Shown here: one piece after another, positions 44,603 through 56,904 of the stretch
How the letters are laid out: each line of letters opens with the position of its first letter
How positions within the stretch are numbered: the first letter of the stretch is position 1
NCBI GenBank assembly: GCA_022511345.1
Contig: JAFLRR010000004.1
Coordinates: forward strand, 62,001-126,000
Length of the DNA: 64,000 nt
Direction: 5' to 3'
From: Alistipes sp.
GTDB lineage: Bacteria > Bacteroidota > Bacteroidia > Bacteroidales > Rikenellaceae
Made by a program: the position numbers and the translations under genes
Notes under the pieces: generated by a model
What the model was told of the DNA's origin: nothing
The model's database searches: none
What the model saw: the letters and a program-made list of their open reading frames with translations, nothing else

Positions 44603-44893
44603 CCTTCGCAAGCAGGCGTCACAAGCCTTCGATGGTGCAAATATAGCAATTTTTTTGCTAAACGGAACATCTCTTCGCCGGCTCCCGCCCGCGGCATCCG
44701 CCTCGGCAGCGCACCGCGCTGCCCGTCAACGAAATATTATTGTCGGCAAATGATAAAAAATATCGATTTTTCGGTGCAATTTTGCAAAAACCTCACTATA
44801 TTTGTCCCAAGTTTGCACATGTACGCGCAACGCGCATGAAAGACATGTGTCGAACAGGGTTGTAAATTGAAATTTAAACATTTTTTAATACTT

Positions 44894-46348
44894 ATGAAAA
44901 AGCATCTTTTCTGGCTTGCTGCCCTTGCATTGGGCATGGCAGCATGTACGACCGACCCCAACGGTCCCGAAGGCCCCAAGGGTCCCGAAGACGACAACAC
45001 GACTCCCGTGGCATCCGCCCAGCTCATCGAGCTCAAGGCCGACCAGAGCCGTCTGCTCACTCCGGGCGCCTCTCTTGCTGCCACCTCTGCAGCTGACGCC
45101 GAGAACAACGGCGCATGGCTCGAAGGTCCTAAATACCTCCAGTCTGTCGAAGGCGGCGAGTCGAAGGACGTATCGCACAAATATTCGGCTACAGGTCTGG
45201 CCTTCAACGGCAACACCCTCTACATCAGCTGGCACTCCAACCGCAAGGCCGACCTCGACGAGGATTCCGAGGACCATCAGCACGGCACCAATGTCGACGG
45301 CGACAGCGAGCCTTCGCTCGACTCGGCCGACGACTGGGGCGGCATCGTCGACGTTATAACCATCGACCCGAGCGACATCACCAAGCTCGAGTGCACCAAG
45401 CTCTACCTGCAGCCCGAGCACAAGTACAACCACGTGCTCTATGCCGACAACAACCTCTACCTGGCTTCGACCAGCTGGTTCGTAGGCGCAGCTCTGCACG
45501 TCATCCCCACCACCGCTACGGGTCTGACCACCTCCGAGGCCGAGCGTTTCAGCCTCACCGGCAACTCGGCCAACTGCGCAGTCAAGGTTGGCGACGAGAT
45601 TGTCACCATCTCGGGCCGCACCGAGGGCGGTCTGAACTGGTTCAACCCCGCAACGGCCGACACCGACCAGTCCAAGGCCAGCGTCAATGCCACCACTGCC
45701 AACTTCGGCGGCAAGCACATCTATGTCGACGGCAACAAGGTCTATACCCTTCGCAACCCCCAGGCTCCCGTAATCGAGGTTTACGACGCCGAGAGCAAAT
45801 CGATCGAGACCTTCGCAACCGTCTCGGGCAATGAGGACGACACCGACTTCGGTCTTCTTCCCATCGACGGCAAGAACGTGCTCGCTGGCGACGAGAACTA
45901 CATCTATGCATGCTGCGGCCAGTACGGTCTGCACATCTACGACAAGGCCACGGGCGAGAAGGTTGCCAGCAGCCACAAGAACATCGCCGAGAACAAGAAC
46001 GCAAAGCCCTGGCAGAAGTACTACACCGCCAACGGCGTCGATGTGGACGACAACTATGTCTACGTAGCCAACGGCGCAGGTCTCGTCATTCTCGAGAAGA
46101 ACTTCGACAACCTGAACCAGTACGGCGGTCTGAAGCTCAAGAAGTACGCTCAGTTCACCGGCACCGTCGACTTCACCTTCAACAACCGCTCGGGCAACGA
46201 CAACACCGAGGAGGGTCAGCTCAAAGAGTCGTCGAACTTCGTCAAGCTCTACACCAACGGCGACAAGCACTACGCATTCGTAGCCTACGGCATGTACGGT
46301 CTGCGTATCTACGACCTCTCGGAGCTCTACCCCGCAGTTGAGGAGTAA
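44894..46348 (+). CDS. Lipoprotein, unrecognised beta-propeller-like family (paralogue of 46788-49436)
   Basis: Lipobox LGMAACTTDPNGPEG; HKYSATGLAFNGNTLYISWHSN...HGTNVDGD...DDWGGIVDVITID...EHKYNHVLYADNNLYLASTSWFVGAALHVIP...ANCAVKVGDEIVTISGRTEGGLNWF. Confidence 0.75.
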   Translation: MKKHLFWLAALALGMAACTTDPNGPEGPKGPEDDNTTPVASAQLIELKADQSRLLTPGASLAATSAADAENNGAWLEGPKYLQSVEGGESKDVSHKYSATGLAFNGNTLYISWHSNRKADLDEDSEDHQHGTNVDGDSEPSLDSADDWGGIVDVITIDPSDITKLECTKLYLQPEHKYNHVLYADNNLYLASTSWFVGAALHVIPTTATGLTTSEAERFSLTGNSANCAVKVGDEIVTISGRTEGGLNWFNPATADTDQSKASVNATTANFGGKHIYVDGNKVYTLRNPQAPVIEVYDAESKSIETFATVSGNEDDTDFGLLPIDGKNVLAGDENYIYACCGQYGLHIYDKATGEKVASSHKNIAENKNAKPWQKYYTANGVDVDDNYVYVANGAGLVILEKNFDNLNQYGGLKLKKYAQFTGTVDFTFNNRSGNDNTEEGQLKESSNFVKLYTNGDKHYAFVAYGMYGLRIYDLSELYPAVEE

Positions 46349-46787: not shown

Positions 46788-49436
46788 TTATTTCTTTATC
46801 AGCTCGCTGACCGAATATATTCTCATTCCGTACATGCCGTATGCCACGAACACCTTGTCGCCGCGCACGCGCACGAAGTTCGACGACTCCTTCGCCGTGC
46901 CGTCGGGCATCGTGCCGTCCTTCTCCCAGCCGTTGGGATAGACGAAACCCTTGCCGGTGTAAGCCACGTAGCTTACGGTGTGGTACTCCTTGGTCTTCTC
47001 GTCCTGGCTGTCATTCTTGAATACGGCCAGACCGCCGCCCGTAGCCACATATATGTAGCCCTCATCGTCCACATCGACGCAGTTGGCCGACACTTTGCTC
47101 TTGCCGACCCTCTCGCCCGTCTTCCAGTCGAAGACATGCAGACCGTTGCGGCCGCAGCAGATATACACCTTGCCATCCTTCACGACCATTGCGTTCTTGC
47201 CGTCATAGGGCACCAGCGACACTCCCGTCGACAGTTCGCCGACCTGCACGCCGTTGTAGTTGTATGCAGTCACCGTAGCGTTGGTCGTGTCGTGCAGCGC
47301 ATATACATATGTTCCGTCGTCGTATATGAACTTGCCGCCGTAGCCGGCCGTTTTGCTGTTCTTGTACTTCTTGACCTGGCTCGACTCGTCGTCTACCGCA
47401 AACCAGTTCAGACCGCCCTCGGTGCGGCCCGAGATTGTGGCTATGTACTTGTTGTCGATTATCTCCACGCAGTTGGCCGAGTTGCCCGTCAGGTTCACGC
47501 GGTACGCCTGCTTGGTGTCGAACGTCTGCCCCACGCCCGTGTCGGAGGGCACCAGAGGCACCACATGCAGCGCTGCGCCCACATTCCAGCTGGTCGAAGC
47601 CAAGTAGAGCTTTCCGTCGAAGTACTGCACATGGTTGTACTTGTGCTCGGGGTTCCACACCGTGCCGGCTATGTAGAGGTCGGCTCTGTCGGGGTGGTAG
47701 TTGTTTATCTGCACTATGTCGATTATTCCGCCCCAGTCGTCTGAGCCCTCTACCGACGGGCCGCCATATCCGGCCTCATCCTCGCGGTCGGGGTCCATGT
47801 TGGTTCCGTGGTCGTGCTCGAAGCCGTCCTGCGACTCGCCGCCGGGCAGGTTCGAGTGCCAGCAGATATATACATAGTTTCCGTCGAAAGCCAGACTCGT
47901 CGCCGAATACTTGTGCGCTGCGGGCGGCAGAATCTCGTCCTGCGAGGGCGGCTGCTCGCCCCATGTGTAGTTGGCGCGGCAGTCGTTCTCGTCGTTCGAG
48001 CCTATCTGGAAGTCGCCGTCGAATTTTGTCGGGTCGGCCTTTACGCTAATGCTGTATCCGTAGTCGTCGTTGTCGTTGCGGCCTCTGTCGAACACGGTGT
48101 TGTAGCCCTGGTTTGTGTACGACGACTCGTTCGATGCCCAGCCCACATATATCACCGGCTCGGCCGTCACCAGCTCACCCGTTTCGGTCCGTGTTCTCTT
48201 GCCGAATACGGCCAGCTTGTCGTTTGCGGTCTTGGTTCTGAAATATTTGAACACCTTCTCGCTCTCCGAGGGCTGCACACCGGTAATCGAGCCCTGAATA
48301 TATACGGCCGAGTTGCCCTCAGCCACCACGAAGTGACCGTTTACGAACACGTTCTTTCCGGAATTGTTCTTAACCGCCTGGCCGCCTATTACCAGCACGC
48401 CGTTGTTGAGCCAGTATACACCGTTCGAACCGTTCTGGAACTCCACTCCCTGTGTCAGTTCGAGGAAGTAGTTGACATATATCTCCAGCGCATCCTTGTT
48501 GTTGCCGTGAACTACGAATTTGTGGAGTGTGGCGCACTCGTTGAAGTAGAAGCGGGTCGGATTGTCCGTCTTTCCGTTGTCTATCTCCAGGTCTTCGATT
48601 GTCACCGACGAGTCGAACCGGTACTCGCCGTATCGGGCATAGAGCTGGCCCTTGAACTCCACGGGCTGCGAGAACCATAAGTAGGGATAATTGTTATCGA
48701 CGCTGAAGTTGTTCTCGAAAACGGTCTTTCCGCCGAACCAGTACTCGCCGTATGTGAACTGCACGCTGCCCTTGAATGTCGCGTCGGCGTGAATCTCCAC
48801 ATGCGAGGGTTTGTCGTCGCCGTTTGGCGCATTCTGCCATACGCTCAGGTTCAGCGGCTTGGAGTTGTAGTAGTAGAAGTTCACGTTTCCGGCCGGGATG
48901 TTCACATTCTTCGAGTCCGATATCGAGCCCCAGACATAGTATGTCCAGTGTCTTTTCAGCGTAGCCGACTGGTCCCACGAGTCGCTCAGCTCGACATCCG
49001 TTGCCGACGAGAGTATGTAGAGCGTACCTGCCTCCGAGGCGTTGTTACGGTCGTAGTATGAGATTTTCACGCCCGGCTTGGCCACATAGAGCCTCTTCAG
49101 GTTTCCGGCCTGGAACTCATTTCCTTCGGTAGTCGGTTTTATGACCATGGCCTCGACACCGCCCCAGATTCCGTTCTGGTTATATTCGGGAATATCCGTT
49201 ATATCGGGTTCGGCCTCTATCGCGTGCCCGGTGTCGACGGCCTCTACTGCACGCGTGGCGGCATACGCATCCGTGGCCTGACGCGATATGATTCGCGACT
49301 GGTCGACAGGCAGATGCTTGAGCACCTCTTTCGAGGGCGCAACCTCCGGCTTGCCTTTACCTGGTCCCTCTGCCGGGTCGTTCGTACATGCCGACATCAC
49401 CAGAGCCAGCGCGCCCAACAGCAACAACTTCTTCAT
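46788..49436 (-). CDS. Large lipoprotein: long N-terminal beta-rich region plus C-terminal propeller-like domain paralogous to 44894-46348
   Basis: Lipobox LVMSACTNDPAEGP; HKYSATSLAFDGNYVYICWHSNLPGG...HGTNMDPD...DDWGGIIDIVQIN...EHKYNHVQYFDGKLYLASTSWNVGAALHVVPL...ANCVEIIDNKYIATISGRTEGGLNWF. Confidence 0.78.
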   Translation of the reverse strand: MKKLLLLGALALVMSACTNDPAEGPGKGKPEVAPSKEVLKHLPVDQSRIISRQATDAYAATRAVEAVDTGHAIEAEPDITDIPEYNQNGIWGGVEAMVIKPTTEGNEFQAGNLKRLYVAKPGVKISYYDRNNASEAGTLYILSSATDVELSDSWDQSATLKRHWTYYVWGSISDSKNVNIPAGNVNFYYYNSKPLNLSVWQNAPNGDDKPSHVEIHADATFKGSVQFTYGEYWFGGKTVFENNFSVDNNYPYLWFSQPVEFKGQLYARYGEYRFDSSVTIEDLEIDNGKTDNPTRFYFNECATLHKFVVHGNNKDALEIYVNYFLELTQGVEFQNGSNGVYWLNNGVLVIGGQAVKNNSGKNVFVNGHFVVAEGNSAVYIQGSITGVQPSESEKVFKYFRTKTANDKLAVFGKRTRTETGELVTAEPVIYVGWASNESSYTNQGYNTVFDRGRNDNDDYGYSISVKADPTKFDGDFQIGSNDENDCRANYTWGEQPPSQDEILPPAAHKYSATSLAFDGNYVYICWHSNLPGGESQDGFEHDHGTNMDPDREDEAGYGGPSVEGSDDWGGIIDIVQINNYHPDRADLYIAGTVWNPEHKYNHVQYFDGKLYLASTSWNVGAALHVVPLVPSDTGVGQTFDTKQAYRVNLTGNSANCVEIIDNKYIATISGRTEGGLNWFAVDDESSQVKKYKNSKTAGYGGKFIYDDGTYVYALHDTTNATVTAYNYNGVQVGELSTGVSLVPYDGKNAMVVKDGKVYICCGRNGLHVFDWKTGERVGKSKVSANCVDVDDEGYIYVATGGGLAVFKNDSQDEKTKEYHTVSYVAYTGKGFVYPNGWEKDGTMPDGTAKESSNFVRVRGDKVFVAYGMYGMRIYSVSELIKK

Positions 49437-49467: not shown

Positions 49468-50784
49468 TCACATTTTCACCACGTCTATGCGCCCGTCGCC
49501 GCACGTCTGCTGCGGCAGGCACCCTTTGACGTCGTACACCACCGCACGGCCGGCGCCGTAGCGGCTGAAATCGAAATCCCTGAACTCGTCGTGCGCCACG
49601 CACAGCGCCATCACGTCATAGGCGTGCTCCTTCAGCTCTTCGCAGCGTGTGCAGACCTTCACTCCGTACAGGTTTTCGGCCTGCGAGGCATCTGCCAGCG
49701 GGTCGTATATCTCCACATGCGTGGTGTATCGTGCCAACAGGCGGTATATGTCAATAACGCGCGTATTGCGTATATCGGGACAGTTCTCCTTGAACGTAAA
49801 TCCGAGCAGCAGTATCTTCGCCCCGGCCGGATCCGCATCCGTGTGCGATGCCAGCGACTGGATGATCTGCTCGGTGACATATCCCGGCATCGAGTTGTTT
49901 ATACCGCGAGCCATCGACATCAGACCGGCCGCTATTCCTTTGCGCGAGGCGAACTCTATCAGGTAGTACGGGTCCACGCCTATGCAGTGGCCTCCGACCA
50001 GCCCCGGGCGGAATCCCAGCGCGTTCCACTTGGTGTTCATCGCCTCGAGCACCTCGTTGAAGTCTATACCGAAGGCATTCATTATCTGTGCCACCTCGTT
50101 CATGAAGGCAATGTTCACGTCGCGCTGCGTATTCTCCACTATCTTCGCGGCCTCGGCCACGCGTATGCTTGGCGCCTGCCATGTCATGCCCTCTCCCAGA
50201 ATCGAGGCGTATACCCTGTCGATGAATGCCGCCACTTCGGGCGTCGAGCCCGACGTGACCTTCACCACGTTGTCGGGCGTATGGAGTCTGTCGCCGGGGT
50301 TGATTCTCTCGGGCGAGTATCCGGCGAAGAAGTCCACGTTGTACTTCAGCCCCGAGGCCGCCTCTATCGCCGGCACGCATATCTCCTCCGTGGCTCCGGG
50401 GTACACCGTCGACTCGAATACCACTATGTCTCCCTTCGAGAGTATGCTGCCCACCTCGCGGCTGGCAGCCTTGATATACGACACGTCAGGCCGGAAGTTC
50501 TTGTCCACGGGCGTGGGCACCACTATTACGTAAAAGTTGCACTGGCGCAAATCCTCCAGAGATGAGGTGAACTCGCTGCCGCGCTGCATCATCTCGCCTA
50601 TGTCGTGGCTGTTCACGTCGCCGCAATGGTCGAATTTCTGTTTGAGTTCGGCTATCCGCGACTCCGACAGGTCGAAACCCACGACCTTGTATTTGCGCGA
50701 GAAGAGGCATGCCATTGGGAATCCGGCATAACCCAGGCCTATAAACCCGACCTTCAGATTCGAGATGTCGTTGTTGTTCAGCAT
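49468..50784 (-). CDS. Nucleotide-sugar dehydrogenase (UDP-GlcNAc/GalNAc 6-dehydrogenase-like, TviB/WbpO type)
   Basis: LKVGFIGLGYAGFPMACLFSRKYKVVGFDLSESRI; FESTVYPGATEEICVP; FRPGLVGGHCIGVDPYYL; ORF-track N-terminal extension rejected, start at MLNNNDISNL. Confidence 0.9.
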   Translation of the reverse strand: MLNNNDISNLKVGFIGLGYAGFPMACLFSRKYKVVGFDLSESRIAELKQKFDHCGDVNSHDIGEMMQRGSEFTSSLEDLRQCNFYVIVVPTPVDKNFRPDVSYIKAASREVGSILSKGDIVVFESTVYPGATEEICVPAIEAASGLKYNVDFFAGYSPERINPGDRLHTPDNVVKVTSGSTPEVAAFIDRVYASILGEGMTWQAPSIRVAEAAKIVENTQRDVNIAFMNEVAQIMNAFGIDFNEVLEAMNTKWNALGFRPGLVGGHCIGVDPYYLIEFASRKGIAAGLMSMARGINNSMPGYVTEQIIQSLASHTDADPAGAKILLLGFTFKENCPDIRNTRVIDIYRLLARYTTHVEIYDPLADASQAENLYGVKVCTRCEELKEHAYDVMALCVAHDEFRDFDFSRYGAGRAVVYDVKGCLPQQTCGDGRIDVVKM

Positions 50785-50896
50785 ATTGTATCGGTCACAA
50801 TGTTGAAACAGCATATTTCGGGCCGACAGCGCCGCAAGCGGTCCGCTGACTTTGCAAATGTAATACAAATTTGTTTATTTGTACACTGTGTCATAA

Positions 50897-52300
50897 TTAT
50901 TTTTGCGATATTTTCTCCGAACCTGCACTCTCCTCGGCCTGGGCCCACACCGAAGTCTTTCTCGGGTTCCATTCGTCGCGGAAAGAGTTGAAAAAGAAGA
51001 ACTCCGTCGTATAGCCTATCATTCGCGTCAGACGCAGGAAATAACCCGTGTAGAATGTCGACAGAGGCAGGTATTTGGCCAGCCGCAGCTCCTCGCGCCG
51101 GCGCTCGGTGACCATCATTATCACGCCGAAGGCCACCAGCGAGAAGCAGAACCTCAGCAGCCACCCAACCACCATTATCTCGAGCAGCCGGTCGGTGTAG
51201 GTGAACAGCAGCGAGAGTATGTAGTAGAACCACATGTAGTTGAACACGCAGTCATAGAGTATGCTCTCCATGTTCGACAGCCAGTTCAGCAGCGACCAGT
51301 TGCGGTTCGGCAGCAGTATGTCTTTGTGCTTGCGCACCCTGAATCGCACCAGCGAACGCGCCCATCGCCGCCGCTGGCGGTACAGCCCGAACCATGTCGT
51401 GGGCACGTTGGTCAGGCATATGGCCTCGTTGGCGAACCATATTTTGTAACCCGCCTTGCGTATTTTCTGCGTTATGTCGCCGTCCAGACCGGGTCCTATG
51501 TCCCACATACCCACCTTCATGAGCGTCTCTCGCTCGAAGGCTCCGAATGCGCCCGATATGATGTGGTATATGCCCAGATGATTGACCACCATGCGGCCCA
51601 CCATGATCGTCTTCAGATACTCGAGCGCCTGCAGCGAGGTGCATATCGTCGCATCGGCATTGCGCACCTTGATGCATCCGCCCACGGCCTTTATTCGGCT
51701 GTCCATGTAGAACGGCAGCAGTACCTTTTCGAGAGCGTCGCGGTCGAGCGACGAGTCCGAGTCCAGATGCACCACATACTTTCCCCTGGCATAGCGGGCT
51801 CCCATGTTCGCCGCACCGGCCTTGCCGCCGCGGTCGTTCAGCCGCAGATAGAGGTCTATGAAGCCGTTCTTCTCCATATCGCGGCAAATCAGCGGCGTGG
51901 CGTCGTCCGAGCCGTCGTCGACCACGATTATCTCGTAGTTGCCGTATGTCTGCTCGCGCAGACTCATGGCCAGCTTGTAGATGTTCTTGCCTTCGTTTCG
52001 TCCCGGCACCAAAATCGACACTAACGGATTCTCCGAGAAGAGCACCATCCGCGCCTGCGTCTCCAGGCGGCGGCGCCGGCGCGTGGTGAGCTTGTACCAC
52101 ACCCCGACGATTATCTCCAGCAGGTAGTACCTCGGAAACTCTATCAGAAACAGATACCAGTATATGTGCAGCAGCGTGTTCATGTCGAGGTTGCGCTTGA
52201 AGCACACCTCGATGTCGTAGTAGAGCTCCATCATGTGGTTCGTGAACCACATGATGCCGCTTCCCGCGGCGTTGAGTATCTCCGAAATGGCATCCATCAC
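50897..52300 (-). CDS. Membrane processive glycosyltransferase family 2 (cellulose/hyaluronan/Alg8-like synthase)
   Basis: VSILVPGRNEGKNIYKLAMSLREQTYGNYEIIVVDDGSDD; VHLDSDSSLDRDAL; GDITQKIRKAGY; YRQRRRWARSL (QxxRW); hydrophobic N- and C-terminal segments. Confidence 0.9.
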   Translation of the reverse strand: MMDAISEILNAAGSGIMWFTNHMMELYYDIEVCFKRNLDMNTLLHIYWYLFLIEFPRYYLLEIIVGVWYKLTTRRRRRLETQARMVLFSENPLVSILVPGRNEGKNIYKLAMSLREQTYGNYEIIVVDDGSDDATPLICRDMEKNGFIDLYLRLNDRGGKAGAANMGARYARGKYVVHLDSDSSLDRDALEKVLLPFYMDSRIKAVGGCIKVRNADATICTSLQALEYLKTIMVGRMVVNHLGIYHIISGAFGAFERETLMKVGMWDIGPGLDGDITQKIRKAGYKIWFANEAICLTNVPTTWFGLYRQRRRWARSLVRFRVRKHKDILLPNRNWSLLNWLSNMESILYDCVFNYMWFYYILSLLFTYTDRLLEIMVVGWLLRFCFSLVAFGVIMMVTERRREELRLAKYLPLSTFYTGYFLRLTRMIGYTTEFFFFNSFRDEWNPRKTSVWAQAEESAGSEKISQK

Positions 52301-52321
52301 CTGCGGCTGTCGTCCCGGCCG

Positions 52322-53863
52322 CTATGCCTCGCCGTGCGGCTCTTCATCGCCCTCTGCGGCGGGTTCGCGGTCGTTGTGCTCCTCCTCGATATACTCGGTC
52401 AGCTGGTTTATGAAGACCTCCGAGTCGTCGTCGTGCATGAGTCTGTAAGTCTTTATCCAGCGCACCATCGACACATCCTCCGAGTCGTCCACATAGTCGC
52501 GGTATATCTGGTCGAGCATTCTCTTTATGCGGTCGTGCTCGGCCTCCATACGATCCTTGTGCACCACCACCAGGATATAGAAGTTACTGTTGAGCGTGGT
52601 AATCTTTATCGTGGTGATTCGCGAGAGCAGCGTGCGCATTGCGTCGAACAGCTGCCAGTTCTCGCGGTCGCCGTCGTAGTGGTAGTGGTAGCGGTATACG
52701 AACAGCACGTTGTCCTCATACGAGTGCAGGTTGTTGAACATCTTTATCGACTCGATGAAGTTCTCGAATGTCGAACGTCCCGAGTAGATGTCGTTGCTCT
52801 CGATCTGGAATATTCCGTCGTCGCCGGCAAAGGCCTCTATACCCTTCTGCGTGAGCTTGTACTCCCACACGTCGATTGGCGCCAGCTCGGCTGGTTCCGA
52901 CTCGTTGCCGCAGTTGGCGCAGCGCACCTTCATGGCCGGCGCCAGGAAGGTGTTTCCGCAGTTGACGGCCTTGTTGTTGCGCCCGTAGGTGGTGTTGTTG
53001 CAGGTGAAAACCGTAGCCGGGCGGTCGTAGTCCACGCCTATATGCCGCAATATCCGCTTGCACTTGGGGCAGCACAGCTGGCCGTCATAGGCGTATGTGG
53101 TCTCGGGCGAGATGTTGGCGCAGCGGAAGTGGTGAATCATCGACTCCTGGTGTATGTTCGAGCTGCCGCACTTGGGGCAGCACTCGATAAAGAGCAGATG
53201 GCTGTTTCCGCAGCTGTGACACACGTGCACGCGGTCGATGAACCGCGAGCGCTCGGCGAATCCCAACTCCTCCAATTTGAGTCCGAATTTCATTCGCTCG
53301 TCATACTGCAGCGTCTCCTGGTTGTCGTATCGTGCCAGATACATCGCCGAATAGCCCTCGGCCAGTCCCCGGATGGTGTGCATCGTGAAGTTGAGCCGTC
53401 CGCGCGATATGTCGAAACGCACCATGTTTGCCAGTATGCGCGAGGTGGTCGAGAGGTCGTTTGTCAGCTCGCGGCTGATGTTGTACTTCTCGATGTTGCC
53501 GTAAATCTCCTCTATGTAGTCCGTGAACCGGTCGTCGGTCGGCGAGTCGCAGAATCCGTCGATGAGGTATGCCGCGAAGTGCATGGCCTCCTCCAGGGCC
53601 GTGGTTGCGAACCGCGGCTTGAGGAAACACTTGTCCACACGCGTGGGCGAGAGCCAGCGCAGCAGCACGCGGTTCTCCTCGTAGTTGTGGTGCACGATGT
53701 TGACGTATATGGCGTCGAAGCTGTCGCTGTCCAACGCGTCGATATTCTCTATCTGCATCGCCTTGTTGACGATCAGAATGCGGCGTCCGCGCGAATTGGT
53801 CACGAAAGTATAGCGGCTGCTCTTGCTCTCCGCATTCTGCGCGCTGTACATTAAATTATCCAT
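52322..53863 (-). CDS. Multi-zinc-ribbon cytoplasmic protein, possibly TackOD1-type, in exopolysaccharide operon
   Basis: CHSCGNSHLLFIECCPKCGSSNIHQESMIHHFRC ... CCPKCKRILRHIGVDYDRPATVFTCNN...NCGNTFLAPAMKVRCANCGNES; no TM segments apparent; start at MDNLMYSAQNAES. Confidence 0.65.
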   Translation of the reverse strand: MDNLMYSAQNAESKSSRYTFVTNSRGRRILIVNKAMQIENIDALDSDSFDAIYVNIVHHNYEENRVLLRWLSPTRVDKCFLKPRFATTALEEAMHFAAYLIDGFCDSPTDDRFTDYIEEIYGNIEKYNISRELTNDLSTTSRILANMVRFDISRGRLNFTMHTIRGLAEGYSAMYLARYDNQETLQYDERMKFGLKLEELGFAERSRFIDRVHVCHSCGNSHLLFIECCPKCGSSNIHQESMIHHFRCANISPETTYAYDGQLCCPKCKRILRHIGVDYDRPATVFTCNNTTYGRNNKAVNCGNTFLAPAMKVRCANCGNESEPAELAPIDVWEYKLTQKGIEAFAGDDGIFQIESNDIYSGRSTFENFIESIKMFNNLHSYEDNVLFVYRYHYHYDGDRENWQLFDAMRTLLSRITTIKITTLNSNFYILVVVHKDRMEAEHDRIKRMLDQIYRDYVDDSEDVSMVRWIKTYRLMHDDDSEVFINQLTEYIEEEHNDREPAAEGDEEPHGEA

Positions 53864-53900: not shown

Positions 53901-55433
53901 CTATTTCCGCTGCGCCCCGGCCGCCGGGACAAGTATCACGGCATCGGCATAGAGCACCTTGTCCACACCGGGATTCAACGCCACGATATCCTCGATCCTG
54001 ACTCCGTAGGTGCGCGCTATGCCGTACAACGTCTCGCCACTCTTCACCTTGTGGCGCACATAGTCTTTAGTCCCGGCATCCGAGCTCACGCTTCCGCCGG
54101 CCGCGCTATTTTCCGCCCGGCTCCTTTCGGCCGCGCTCTGCGAAGGCTTCGCAGCCTCCCCGGCCTGCTTCTGCGGCAGCGTGTCGCCTGCATCGGCATC
54201 TTCATCATCGCCCTCCGACTCCTCGGGACGGTAGTGGTATCTGTCCGAAGCGTTCTTCTGGCGCATCATGCCCAGGTGATACTTCGACTCCTCGGTCAGG
54301 CCGTCGCGCGTGATGTACCAGTAGTCCGAGCCGTCGTCGCGGCGGCCGTTGTCGTAGTTCTTTATGCGCACCTTCACCGGCACCTTGTCCACCGCCGCCC
54401 ACAGCGGCAGCACCTGGTCTCTGTCGGGCGAGAATACCACCATCACGCTGGTGTAGTTGTGCGAGAGGCTGTTGCGCAGCTCCTCGGGCAGCTCCTCGGT
54501 GCGGGCGCCGAGCAGTTCGACCGTCGCACGGAATCTCACATCGTCGTTGACTATCACCTCGGCCTGGGTGTTGTTGTTCACGCGGCCCATGTAGTATGTG
54601 GGCACGTATGCCACCACCTGCATGTTGCTGCGCTCCAGGCTGACATTCTCCAGCTGCAGCACATGCTCCTCCTTGAACACGCGCGAGAACGGCGTGGCCC
54701 ACAGCTTGGTCACCACGGCCGTGTCCTGCGCAATCTCGTAGCGTATTGCCGACGAGTTGCGCTCGTAGATCTGGCGCAGCACGTAGTCCAGGCCGCCCTG
54801 GTCGTTGGCGAACTCGAGGCTGTACTGGCCGAACTTGTGCACTGCCGACTGGCTTTCGCGGTGTATGCTTCCGTATATTCCGGCCTTCTTGAGGGTGGCG
54901 TTCAGCTGCTCGCGCGTCTCGGCCAGCTGTCTGAGCAGGTCCATCTTGTGCGAGTTCTCGGTCATTCCGAAGCGTATGTTGTTGTCCTCCTTGGCGATTT
55001 GGCTCTCCAGCTCGCGGATTTTGACCCTCAGCACCTCGGCTTCGGCATATGCCATGTTGAGCTGCACTCGGGCGTTGCGGTCGTTGACTATCACGCCGGG
55101 CTCGGAGCTCATGCTTCCCAAACCGAACAGGTTGATGTAGACGAACGAGTAGAGCGTATCGCCGGGGATGACTATGTCGCCCACCTCCGTATACTGGTCG
55201 AAGATATACATATCCTCCACCGCGCGGTAGTCCTTGTACTCGGTCTGAATGTAGCCGTCGAACTCCGTGTAGACCACCTTGCGGAATATGTAGAAACCCA
55301 GCAGAAGCAGCACGACAACCAACACTATCGTGAAGATAATCTGCTGCTTGGCCAGAGCCCTGTTTCGTTCGGTTATTATCCGTTCGATGTTCCGGTTCTC
55401 GTCGTAGTCCGATTTGAAGCTGAATGACTGCAT
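53901..55433 (-). CDS. HlyD-like membrane fusion protein with C-terminal LysM domain
   Basis: N-terminal TM QQIIFTIVLVVVLLLLGFYIF, coiled-coil AEAEVLRVKIRELESQIAKEDNN...LLRQLAETREQLNATL, C-terminal VRHKVKSGETLYGIARTYGVRIEDIVALNPGVDKVLYADAVILVP (LysM). Confidence 0.85.
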   Translation of the reverse strand: MQSFSFKSDYDENRNIERIITERNRALAKQQIIFTIVLVVVLLLLGFYIFRKVVYTEFDGYIQTEYKDYRAVEDMYIFDQYTEVGDIVIPGDTLYSFVYINLFGLGSMSSEPGVIVNDRNARVQLNMAYAEAEVLRVKIRELESQIAKEDNNIRFGMTENSHKMDLLRQLAETREQLNATLKKAGIYGSIHRESQSAVHKFGQYSLEFANDQGGLDYVLRQIYERNSSAIRYEIAQDTAVVTKLWATPFSRVFKEEHVLQLENVSLERSNMQVVAYVPTYYMGRVNNNTQAEVIVNDDVRFRATVELLGARTEELPEELRNSLSHNYTSVMVVFSPDRDQVLPLWAAVDKVPVKVRIKNYDNGRRDDGSDYWYITRDGLTEESKYHLGMMRQKNASDRYHYRPEESEGDDEDADAGDTLPQKQAGEAAKPSQSAAERSRAENSAAGGSVSSDAGTKDYVRHKVKSGETLYGIARTYGVRIEDIVALNPGVDKVLYADAVILVPAAGAQRK

Positions 55434-55500: not shown

Positions 55501-56904
55501 TCATTTCATCTCCTGAATTATCAAGTATCGGCTCACGGGCTCGTCGGAGAGATAGCTCTGCAGCTCTATCAGCTGACAGTCGCGCTGATAGGCATATGTC
55601 AGCATCCTCTCCCACGCCTGCAGGTATACGTTGTACTCCTGCAGCCGGTCGATGCGCGAATATTCGCCCGCCACGTTCCGGTAGCCCTCCTTGCGCATGG
55701 CTATGTAGCTCTTCAGGCTGACCATGCGCTCGTATTCGCCGTAAATATTTTCGTTATAGTTCTCTATGTCGCGCAGCAGAGCCGTCACCTCGCGCTCTAT
55801 CTGCTCGCAGGTGCGCTGCTGCTCGATTCGCACCACGCTCTGCTCGGCGCGTATCGCGCGGCGCTTGCGGGCCGTCTCGGCCGATATCGGTATCTTGAAC
55901 GACAGACCCACGTCTATATTGTGCGTGTTGTGCACATTCGGGCGGTTGTAGTACGACACGCGGGCGAATGGCAGGATGTCCATCGTCTGCAGATAGTCGG
56001 TCTTTTTGCGCTGCACGCCAAGCAGTTCCTCGCGCATGGCCAGCTTGCGCACATCGCGGTGCTCCTCGCGGATGTACTGCATGAGCGAAGCCGTGTCGGC
56101 CACCTTGATGTAGGCTATTCCGACATTTGCCGGCAGGGGCGTCACGATCGAATCGGATTTGATGGCTATCAGCTGGCGCTCGACTTCGGCCTGTTCGTTG
56201 ATAACCTTCAGCAGGTCGTCGCTCGAAATCTTGCCGTTGCGCAACAGGTATATCTGCGTCTGCATGAGCAGGCGCAGATTCTCGGCATGCACTCCCAGAA
56301 CCGTCAGCAGACGGCCGTAATAGCGGTAGCGCACCGACCTCTTCTGGCGGAATATGGTTTCGGCCAGAGCGTCGCGCTCGTACTCCAGCTGGCGCAGTTC
56401 GCCCTCGAGCTGCAGCTCGCGAATCTTGGTGGCGCGCTTGTAGAGCGAACTGTGGAATATGTTCCACTCCAGCTCGGCCTGCAGCTTGGCGTTGTATGCC
56501 ACAAGCGGGTCGTCGGGGTCGTAGCTTATCTGATTGCCGGGGCGCACATAGGCCTGGCCGCGGATGTCGAGACCGGTGCGGGCCTTCATCTCGCGAATCT
56601 GCGCATCGACAGCCTCGTCTATGGCCTCGACGCGCTCTTTGACTATGAAATCTATCTCGGCATAGTCCAGCGCCACCGAGGCCAGCGTGTCGGCCGGCAT
56701 GCGGAATACCAGCGAGTCCATCACCTCGAAGCGGCTGTCGTAGCGCTCCAGAATGCGGTTCGTCTCATCCTGACTGTCGAAATCGACGCTCCCGCGCCCC
56801 GGCTGCAGCTCTGTCGAGCCGGTGCGAGCGAGCTGCTGCGCAGCAGCTCCGAACCACATGGTCGCGGACAGCATGGCGAGCATGATATGTAAGCGGCGCG
56901 GCAT
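55501..56904 (-). CDS. TolC-like outer-membrane channel protein
   Basis: Signal peptide; long helical heptad-rich repeats (ATKIRELQLEGELRQLEYERDALAETIFRQKRSVRYRYYGRLLTVLGVHAENLRLLMQTQIYLL), NRPNVHNTHNIDVGLSFKIPISAETARKRRAIRAEQ; adjacent to the HlyD-like gene. Confidence 0.75.
   Translation of the reverse strand: MPRRLHIMLAMLSATMWFGAAAQQLARTGSTELQPGRGSVDFDSQDETNRILERYDSRFEVMDSLVFRMPADTLASVALDYAEIDFIVKERVEAIDEAVDAQIREMKARTGLDIRGQAYVRPGNQISYDPDDPLVAYNAKLQAELEWNIFHSSLYKRATKIRELQLEGELRQLEYERDALAETIFRQKRSVRYRYYGRLLTVLGVHAENLRLLMQTQIYLLRNGKISSDDLLKVINEQAEVERQLIAIKSDSIVTPLPANVGIAYIKVADTASLMQYIREEHRDVRKLAMREELLGVQRKKTDYLQTMDILPFARVSYYNRPNVHNTHNIDVGLSFKIPISAETARKRRAIRAEQSVVRIEQQRTCEQIEREVTALLRDIENYNENIYGEYERMVSLKSYIAMRKEGYRNVAGEYSRIDRLQEYNVYLQAWERMLTYAYQRDCQLIELQSYLSDEPVSRYLIIQEMK

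Follow-up and report, generated by a model that had tools for sequence, protein, structure and literature searches.

The 513-amino acid protein encoded at positions 52322-53863 of the window (the whole 64,000-nucleotide stretch of an Alistipes sp. contig that was analysed) is best read, with a probability of about 0.7, as the cytoplasmic control or adaptor subunit of a dedicated GT2-HlyD-TolC exopolysaccharide synthase. The original prediction had proposed a cytoplasmic regulator or scaffold of the adjacent synthase, and this is strongly supported by a near-obligate adjacency of TackOD1 and GT2 genes across phyla, from which a contact between the two proteins may be predicted. TackOD1 (PF18551) has been described as an output domain whose function is obscure, with a pattern of eleven Cys plus HxxC, and was reported in thaumarchaeal type IV pilus loci and in "some bacteria", also together with REC (Galperin et al. 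2018, PMC5847659). The window protein differs from the proteins of that report in being tied to a GT2-HlyD-TolC polysaccharide operon and in being fused to a dead GGDEF domain. No prior description of such a TackOD1 operon, nor of a link between TackOD1 and polysaccharide synthesis, was found in a search of open-licence literature.

The TackOD1 protein and its operon

The genes of the operon lie on the same strand in the order TolC, HlyD, TackOD1, GT2 and sugar-nucleotide dehydrogenase, followed by a large lipoprotein. The features are:

55501-56904, minus strand: TolC-like outer-membrane factor (OEP; PF02321, 2.9e-6)
53901-55433, minus strand: HlyD-like periplasmic adaptor with one N-terminal TM and a C-terminal LysM (LysM 2.4e-10, HlyD_3 0.014)
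52322-53863, minus strand: TackOD1 protein, 513 aa, N-terminal domain (NTD), TackOD1 and pseudo-GGDEF (ORF, PF18551, AlphaFold model)
53480-53815, minus strand: N-terminal alpha/beta domain, residues 17-128 (secondary structure of AlphaFold model)
52910-53221, minus strand: twelve metal-ligand candidates and HIGVDYD[RK]P loop (alignments of relatives)
52853-53296, minus strand: TackOD1 Pfam match, residues 190-337 (PF18551)
52397-52780, minus strand: C-terminal degenerate GGDEF domain, residues about 362-489 (hhalign via relatives, Foldseek, motif read-out)
50897-52300, minus strand: GT2 polysaccharide synthase, PgaC-like, no PilZ (Pfam GT2 families)
49468-50787, minus strand: nucleotide-sugar 6-dehydrogenase, predicted to supply a uronate donor (PF03721/PF00984/PF03720)
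46788-49436, minus strand: surface lipoprotein (relatives by HMM search; no Pfam family)

The TackOD1 ORF begins with ATG at 53863, ends at 52322 and sits between the HlyD and GT2 genes. It is overlapped by a plus-strand ORF (52166-53854), which is taken as a high-GC3 shadow; relatives conserve the minus-strand protein. The PF18551 match (132.6 bits against a gathering cutoff of 32, E=1.6e-38) turned a tentative TackOD1 assignment into a firm one. Matches to hemerythrin and to other zinc-ribbon families in the Pfam scan all fell under the cutoff, while a sequence search of the PDB returned chance matches only. The expected lack of an obvious TM segment was borne out, the highest 19-residue hydropathy being 1.33. 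An AlphaFold model of the protein has a pLDDT of 87.

Fifteen Cys residues are present in the protein. The four CxxC pairs listed beforehand are all there (C215/C218, C229/C232, C265/C268 and C315/C318). When the sequence was shuffled 20,000 times at constant composition, four such pairs arose just 7 times. That list had overlooked two further ligand pairs, H245xxC248 and C288...C302, the latter a CxxC widened by insertion. The TackOD1 signature (eleven Cys in CxxC motifs plus HxxC) is thus complete. Among 65 aligned proteins C215, C218, C229, C232, H245, C248, C265, C268, C288, C302 and C315 show no variation, and 52 of the proteins retain C318; the loss of Cys pairs in orthologues, which had been named as counting against the prediction, was not seen. 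A HIGVDYD[RK]P loop (residues 274-282) is likewise conserved. The twelve candidate ligands would fit three zinc sites.

The GT2 falls well short of the PgaC poly-GlcNAc synthase model (TIGR03937, 163.2 bits against a cutoff of 422.3). The dehydrogenase passes the general family model TIGR03026 (352 bits, over cutoff), and its best equivalog is TviB, under cutoff; a uronic acid-containing polymer is therefore likely. The N-terminal TM of the HlyD-like adaptor has a hydropathy of 3.15. Its C-terminal LysM is unusual for a periplasmic adaptor and could anchor the machine to peptidoglycan. The lipoprotein is likely an accessory component of the operon. It is related to a second large surface protein (44867-46348, plus strand) that also has no Pfam family, and relatives of both flank the TackOD1 operon in most loci.

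Pairing of TackOD1 with GT2

Of 396 Bacteroidota genomes sampled, 12 had PF18551 above cutoff, as did 8 of 295 genomes of the order. No other genome examined from the same genus gave a TackOD1 match, which suggests horizontal transfer or repeated loss. A scan of genome contigs with the single sequence returned no match, and an alignment-based scan returned 413 relatives.

Protein and Pfam searches that made no use of the GT2 yielded 18 TackOD1 loci, and in all of them the GT2 is the next gene. Of 93 non-duplicate Bacteroidota loci, 86 have TackOD1 directly adjoining GT2; 90 contain HlyD, 84 contain TolC and 50 contain the dehydrogenase. The seven non-adjacent cases comprise four ended by a contig end, one with a 573-nt gap and two true orphans. 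The orphans (L129:7995-10001 and L133:7995-9945) have no GT2, and a single-domain receiver gene directly follows each. The reverse also holds: in 248 Bacteroidota genomes this GT2 subfamily (E<=1e-60) is restricted to TackOD1 loci, and one genome (G303) carries two TackOD1 and two GT2 genes, paired. Distance correlations between the operon genes (0.65-0.90) were left out of the argument because they are inseparable from shared species history. Two records named as Ruminococcus (L083) and Lachnospiraceae (L109) hold Bacteroidota-type operons and are probably mislabelled or mis-binned assemblies.

Outside Bacteroidota, a protein search of plasmids identified TackOD1 in gammaproteobacteria, alphaproteobacteria and haloarchaea. 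TackOD1 followed by GT2, and usually then by HlyD, occurs in Plesiomonas, Photobacterium, Phyllobacterium (two), Aminobacter, Rhodobacteraceae M382, Roseibium, Palleronia and Methylocystis. One small gene separates TackOD1 and GT2 in Alisedimentitalea; in Aeromonas the neighbouring GT2 crosses the record start, with TolC and HlyD coming after it. The Aeromonas set (TackOD1-GT2-TolC-HlyD) is found on the 29-kb Aeromonas caviae plasmid pKAM345_3 (L171/L182), typed as mobilizable. The TackOD1-GT2-HlyD core recurs in alpha- and gammaproteobacteria. Among haloarchaea, a DUF2334 gene lies between TackOD1 and a GT2 in Halorussus, and there is no GT2 near TackOD1 in Haloterrigena and Natronococcus; the haloarchaeal loci with TackOD1 but without GT2 are L178 and L181.

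Flanking domains and the c-di-GMP background

The C-terminal domain, in which no motif had been recognised, turns out to be a degenerate GGDEF domain when approached through relatives. With hhalign, the C-terminal domain of the window group matched that of marine homologues (97%, E=1e-10), and the marine homologues in turn matched true GGDEF domains (97%, E=6.6e-11, over 130 columns; profile of 20 domains). The direct comparison of the window group with GGDEF gave a probability of 0.6% and no match, so the assignment as a dead GGDEF is a transitive one, reached only through relatives. Pfam GGDEF is above cutoff in the Plesiomonas and Aeromonas relatives. Foldseek with a model of the homologue L139 returned many GGDEF structures, PleD among them, with a probability of 1.00, though none below E=0.001. 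The window model gave weak matches (E about 0.1-0.3) to PelD (4euv, 0.72), BcsE (6tj0, 0.75) and diguanylate cyclases, and these stand among other ferredoxin-like folds.

The GGDEF position reads SNFYI in the window protein and the DxD metal-site position FVYRYH, so neither GG[DE]EF nor DxD of an active diguanylate cyclase is present; the catalytic motif is also absent in the relatives read. Homology to a known enzyme family, which had been named as contrary to the original claim, thus extends only to a catalytically dead domain and leaves that claim standing. The I-site position reads TTIK, and the c-di-GMP-binding RxxD motif is gone. An RDTD I-site is retained in the proteins of three gammaproteobacteria, Plesiomonas, Photobacterium and Aeromonas.

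The NTD of the window protein may have a receiver-like fold, a tentative suggestion from the AlphaFold model that found no sequence support in profile comparison. No PF00072 match occurs in the window protein, which hence does not belong among the response regulators. An iterative REC profile did match it; the profile had picked up TackOD1 proteins and was contaminated by them, so these matches were discarded and separate Pfam REC matches were used alone. In the marine REC-bearing loci L045, L050 and L054, a gene of about 110 aa precedes REC-TackOD1. It was considered as a lone receiver and rejected: it has no REC match and aligns with the NTD, and is therefore a split-off counterpart of that domain.

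REC-bearing relatives had not been foreseen. Six marine relatives and two from alphaproteobacteria have an N-terminal REC by Pfam and alignment. In Roseibium and Palleronia the operon is bordered by Hpt and kinase genes, and receiver genes, some with histidine kinases, follow it in Segatella and Bacteroides loci. Short natural forms of TackOD1 without the GGDEF part (L055, L118 and L123) still adjoin GT2; the TackOD1 core is therefore the constant element and the flanks vary. Longer forms, roughly 680-740 aa in size and extended by an additional region at the C-terminus, occur in L116, L119, L121 and L131, where two receiver-domain genes directly follow the dehydrogenase, with a histidine kinase in L116.

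The 29 TackOD1-bearing Bacteroidota genomes contained no GGDEF above cutoff (the sole weak match being the TackOD1 protein itself) and no PilZ. PilZ was also not detected by Pfam scan in the window GT2 or HlyD, and the system is not of the PilZ-controlled kind. The suggestion, offered with a "perhaps", that the protein replaces PilZ-type control is consistent with these counts. GGDEF was found in 108 of 198 control genomes of the phylum, whereas in the order it occurred in just 5 of 149. The lack of c-di-GMP enzymes is thus mostly a property of the lineage, and so it is not evidence for a swap of control.

Proposed role and alternative explanations

Alg8-Alg44 and BcsA are PilZ-controlled GT2 synthases with a cytoplasmic regulatory domain, and Alg44 couples its GT2 synthase to an HlyD-like arm. 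The window system differs from both in lacking PilZ in the GT2, the HlyD and the genome. The mixed-linkage glucan synthase BgsA is also a GT2 under non-PilZ control, in which c-di-GMP is bound by the enzyme's own C-terminal tail (PMC5567048); no TackOD1 is reported for it. Likenesses are also found in BcsE, the c-di-GMP-sensing regulator of cellulose secretion, a multi-domain protein of the cytosol that regulates a GT2 synthase and has a degenerate GGDEF (PMC7439463), and in PelD, which has a degenerate GGDEF within an exopolysaccharide operon (PMC7112168). Unlike the window protein, BcsE has no zinc core, possesses another N-terminal domain and keeps the RxxD I-site. PelD has a cytosolic GAF-GGDEF part, a different synthase set and no TackOD1. 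Streptococcal PelD lost GGDEF where c-di-GMP is absent (PMC7112168). The RxxD of PelD/BcsE-type I-site receptors does not occur in the window protein. On the best reading, the TackOD1 protein would work like PelD and BcsE while being a member of neither, with homology to them only in the dead GGDEF.

In the proposed mechanism, the TackOD1 zinc core would be an output module touching the GT2, and the modules flanking it would be interchangeable inputs. In some lineages this input would be a genuine receiver domain that kinases presumably phosphorylate. In the gammaproteobacteria it would be the RxxD-bearing dead GGDEF, which is predicted to bind c-di-GMP. In the c-di-GMP-free gut Bacteroidota, the alpha/beta NTD and the dead GGDEF without an I-site may serve as a module for protein interaction or for another ligand. 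A change in the input module would be relayed through TackOD1, by which the synthase would be switched on or assembled. The GT2 would then polymerise a probably uronate-containing chain for export via HlyD and TolC.

The main alternative is that the protein is a constitutive assembly or stability scaffold tying GT2 to the HlyD-TolC channel, with no signal input in Bacteroidota. We consider this a substantial possibility that falls somewhat short of even odds. It accords with the presence of TackOD1 in essentially every complete operon, with the loss of the GGDEF signature residues in the window protein and with the sufficiency of core-only forms (L055 and L123). However, above-cutoff Pfam REC and neighbouring phosphorelay genes in several lineages, together with the RxxD-bearing GGDEF of gammaproteobacteria, speak against it and point towards regulation within the TackOD1 family.

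Binding of another nucleotide, such as c-di-AMP or a nucleotide sugar, to the dead GGDEF or NTD as the signal in Bacteroidota is unlikely. The same genome encodes a c-di-AMP cyclase (PF02457), as do 11 of 13 tested genomes, while GGDEF is absent; but the enzyme is common among bacteria at large (11 of 14 control genomes) and is missing from two genomes with the TackOD1 system (G164 and G409), and no binding motif was found. We think it quite improbable that synthesis is gated by zinc ribbons acting as sensors of redox or metal state: the eleven conserved Cys and one His could be read in this way, yet three structural zinc sites would accommodate the ligands, C318 is not conserved in 13 of the 65 sequences, and the recurring neighbours are signalling rather than redox genes. 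A nucleic-acid-binding regulator of the operon is very improbable, for although zinc ribbons are common in nucleic-acid-binding proteins and REC-wHTH-TackOD1 is known in archaea (PMC5847659), the Pfam scan of the window protein gave no HTH match, the place beside GT2 is kept across phyla, and BcsE and PelD offer a precedent for a synthase regulator.

As a control or adaptor subunit of the synthase, the protein gives TackOD1, a domain of obscure function, a concrete and testable partner and role. There is about an even chance that TackOD1 marks a class of synthase-dependent polysaccharide secretion system not recognised before, spread over Bacteroidota, Proteobacteria and perhaps archaea. In such systems a single zinc output module would couple exchangeable inputs (phosphorelay, c-di-GMP or, in gut bacteria without c-di-GMP, another ligand) to a GT2. 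The analysis also identifies an operon for a secreted polymer in common lineages of the gut, namely Alistipes, Segatella (including S. copri), Muribaculaceae, Paraprevotella and Barnesiella, and provides a case of a c-di-GMP-type regulatory domain retained in bacteria without c-di-GMP enzymes.
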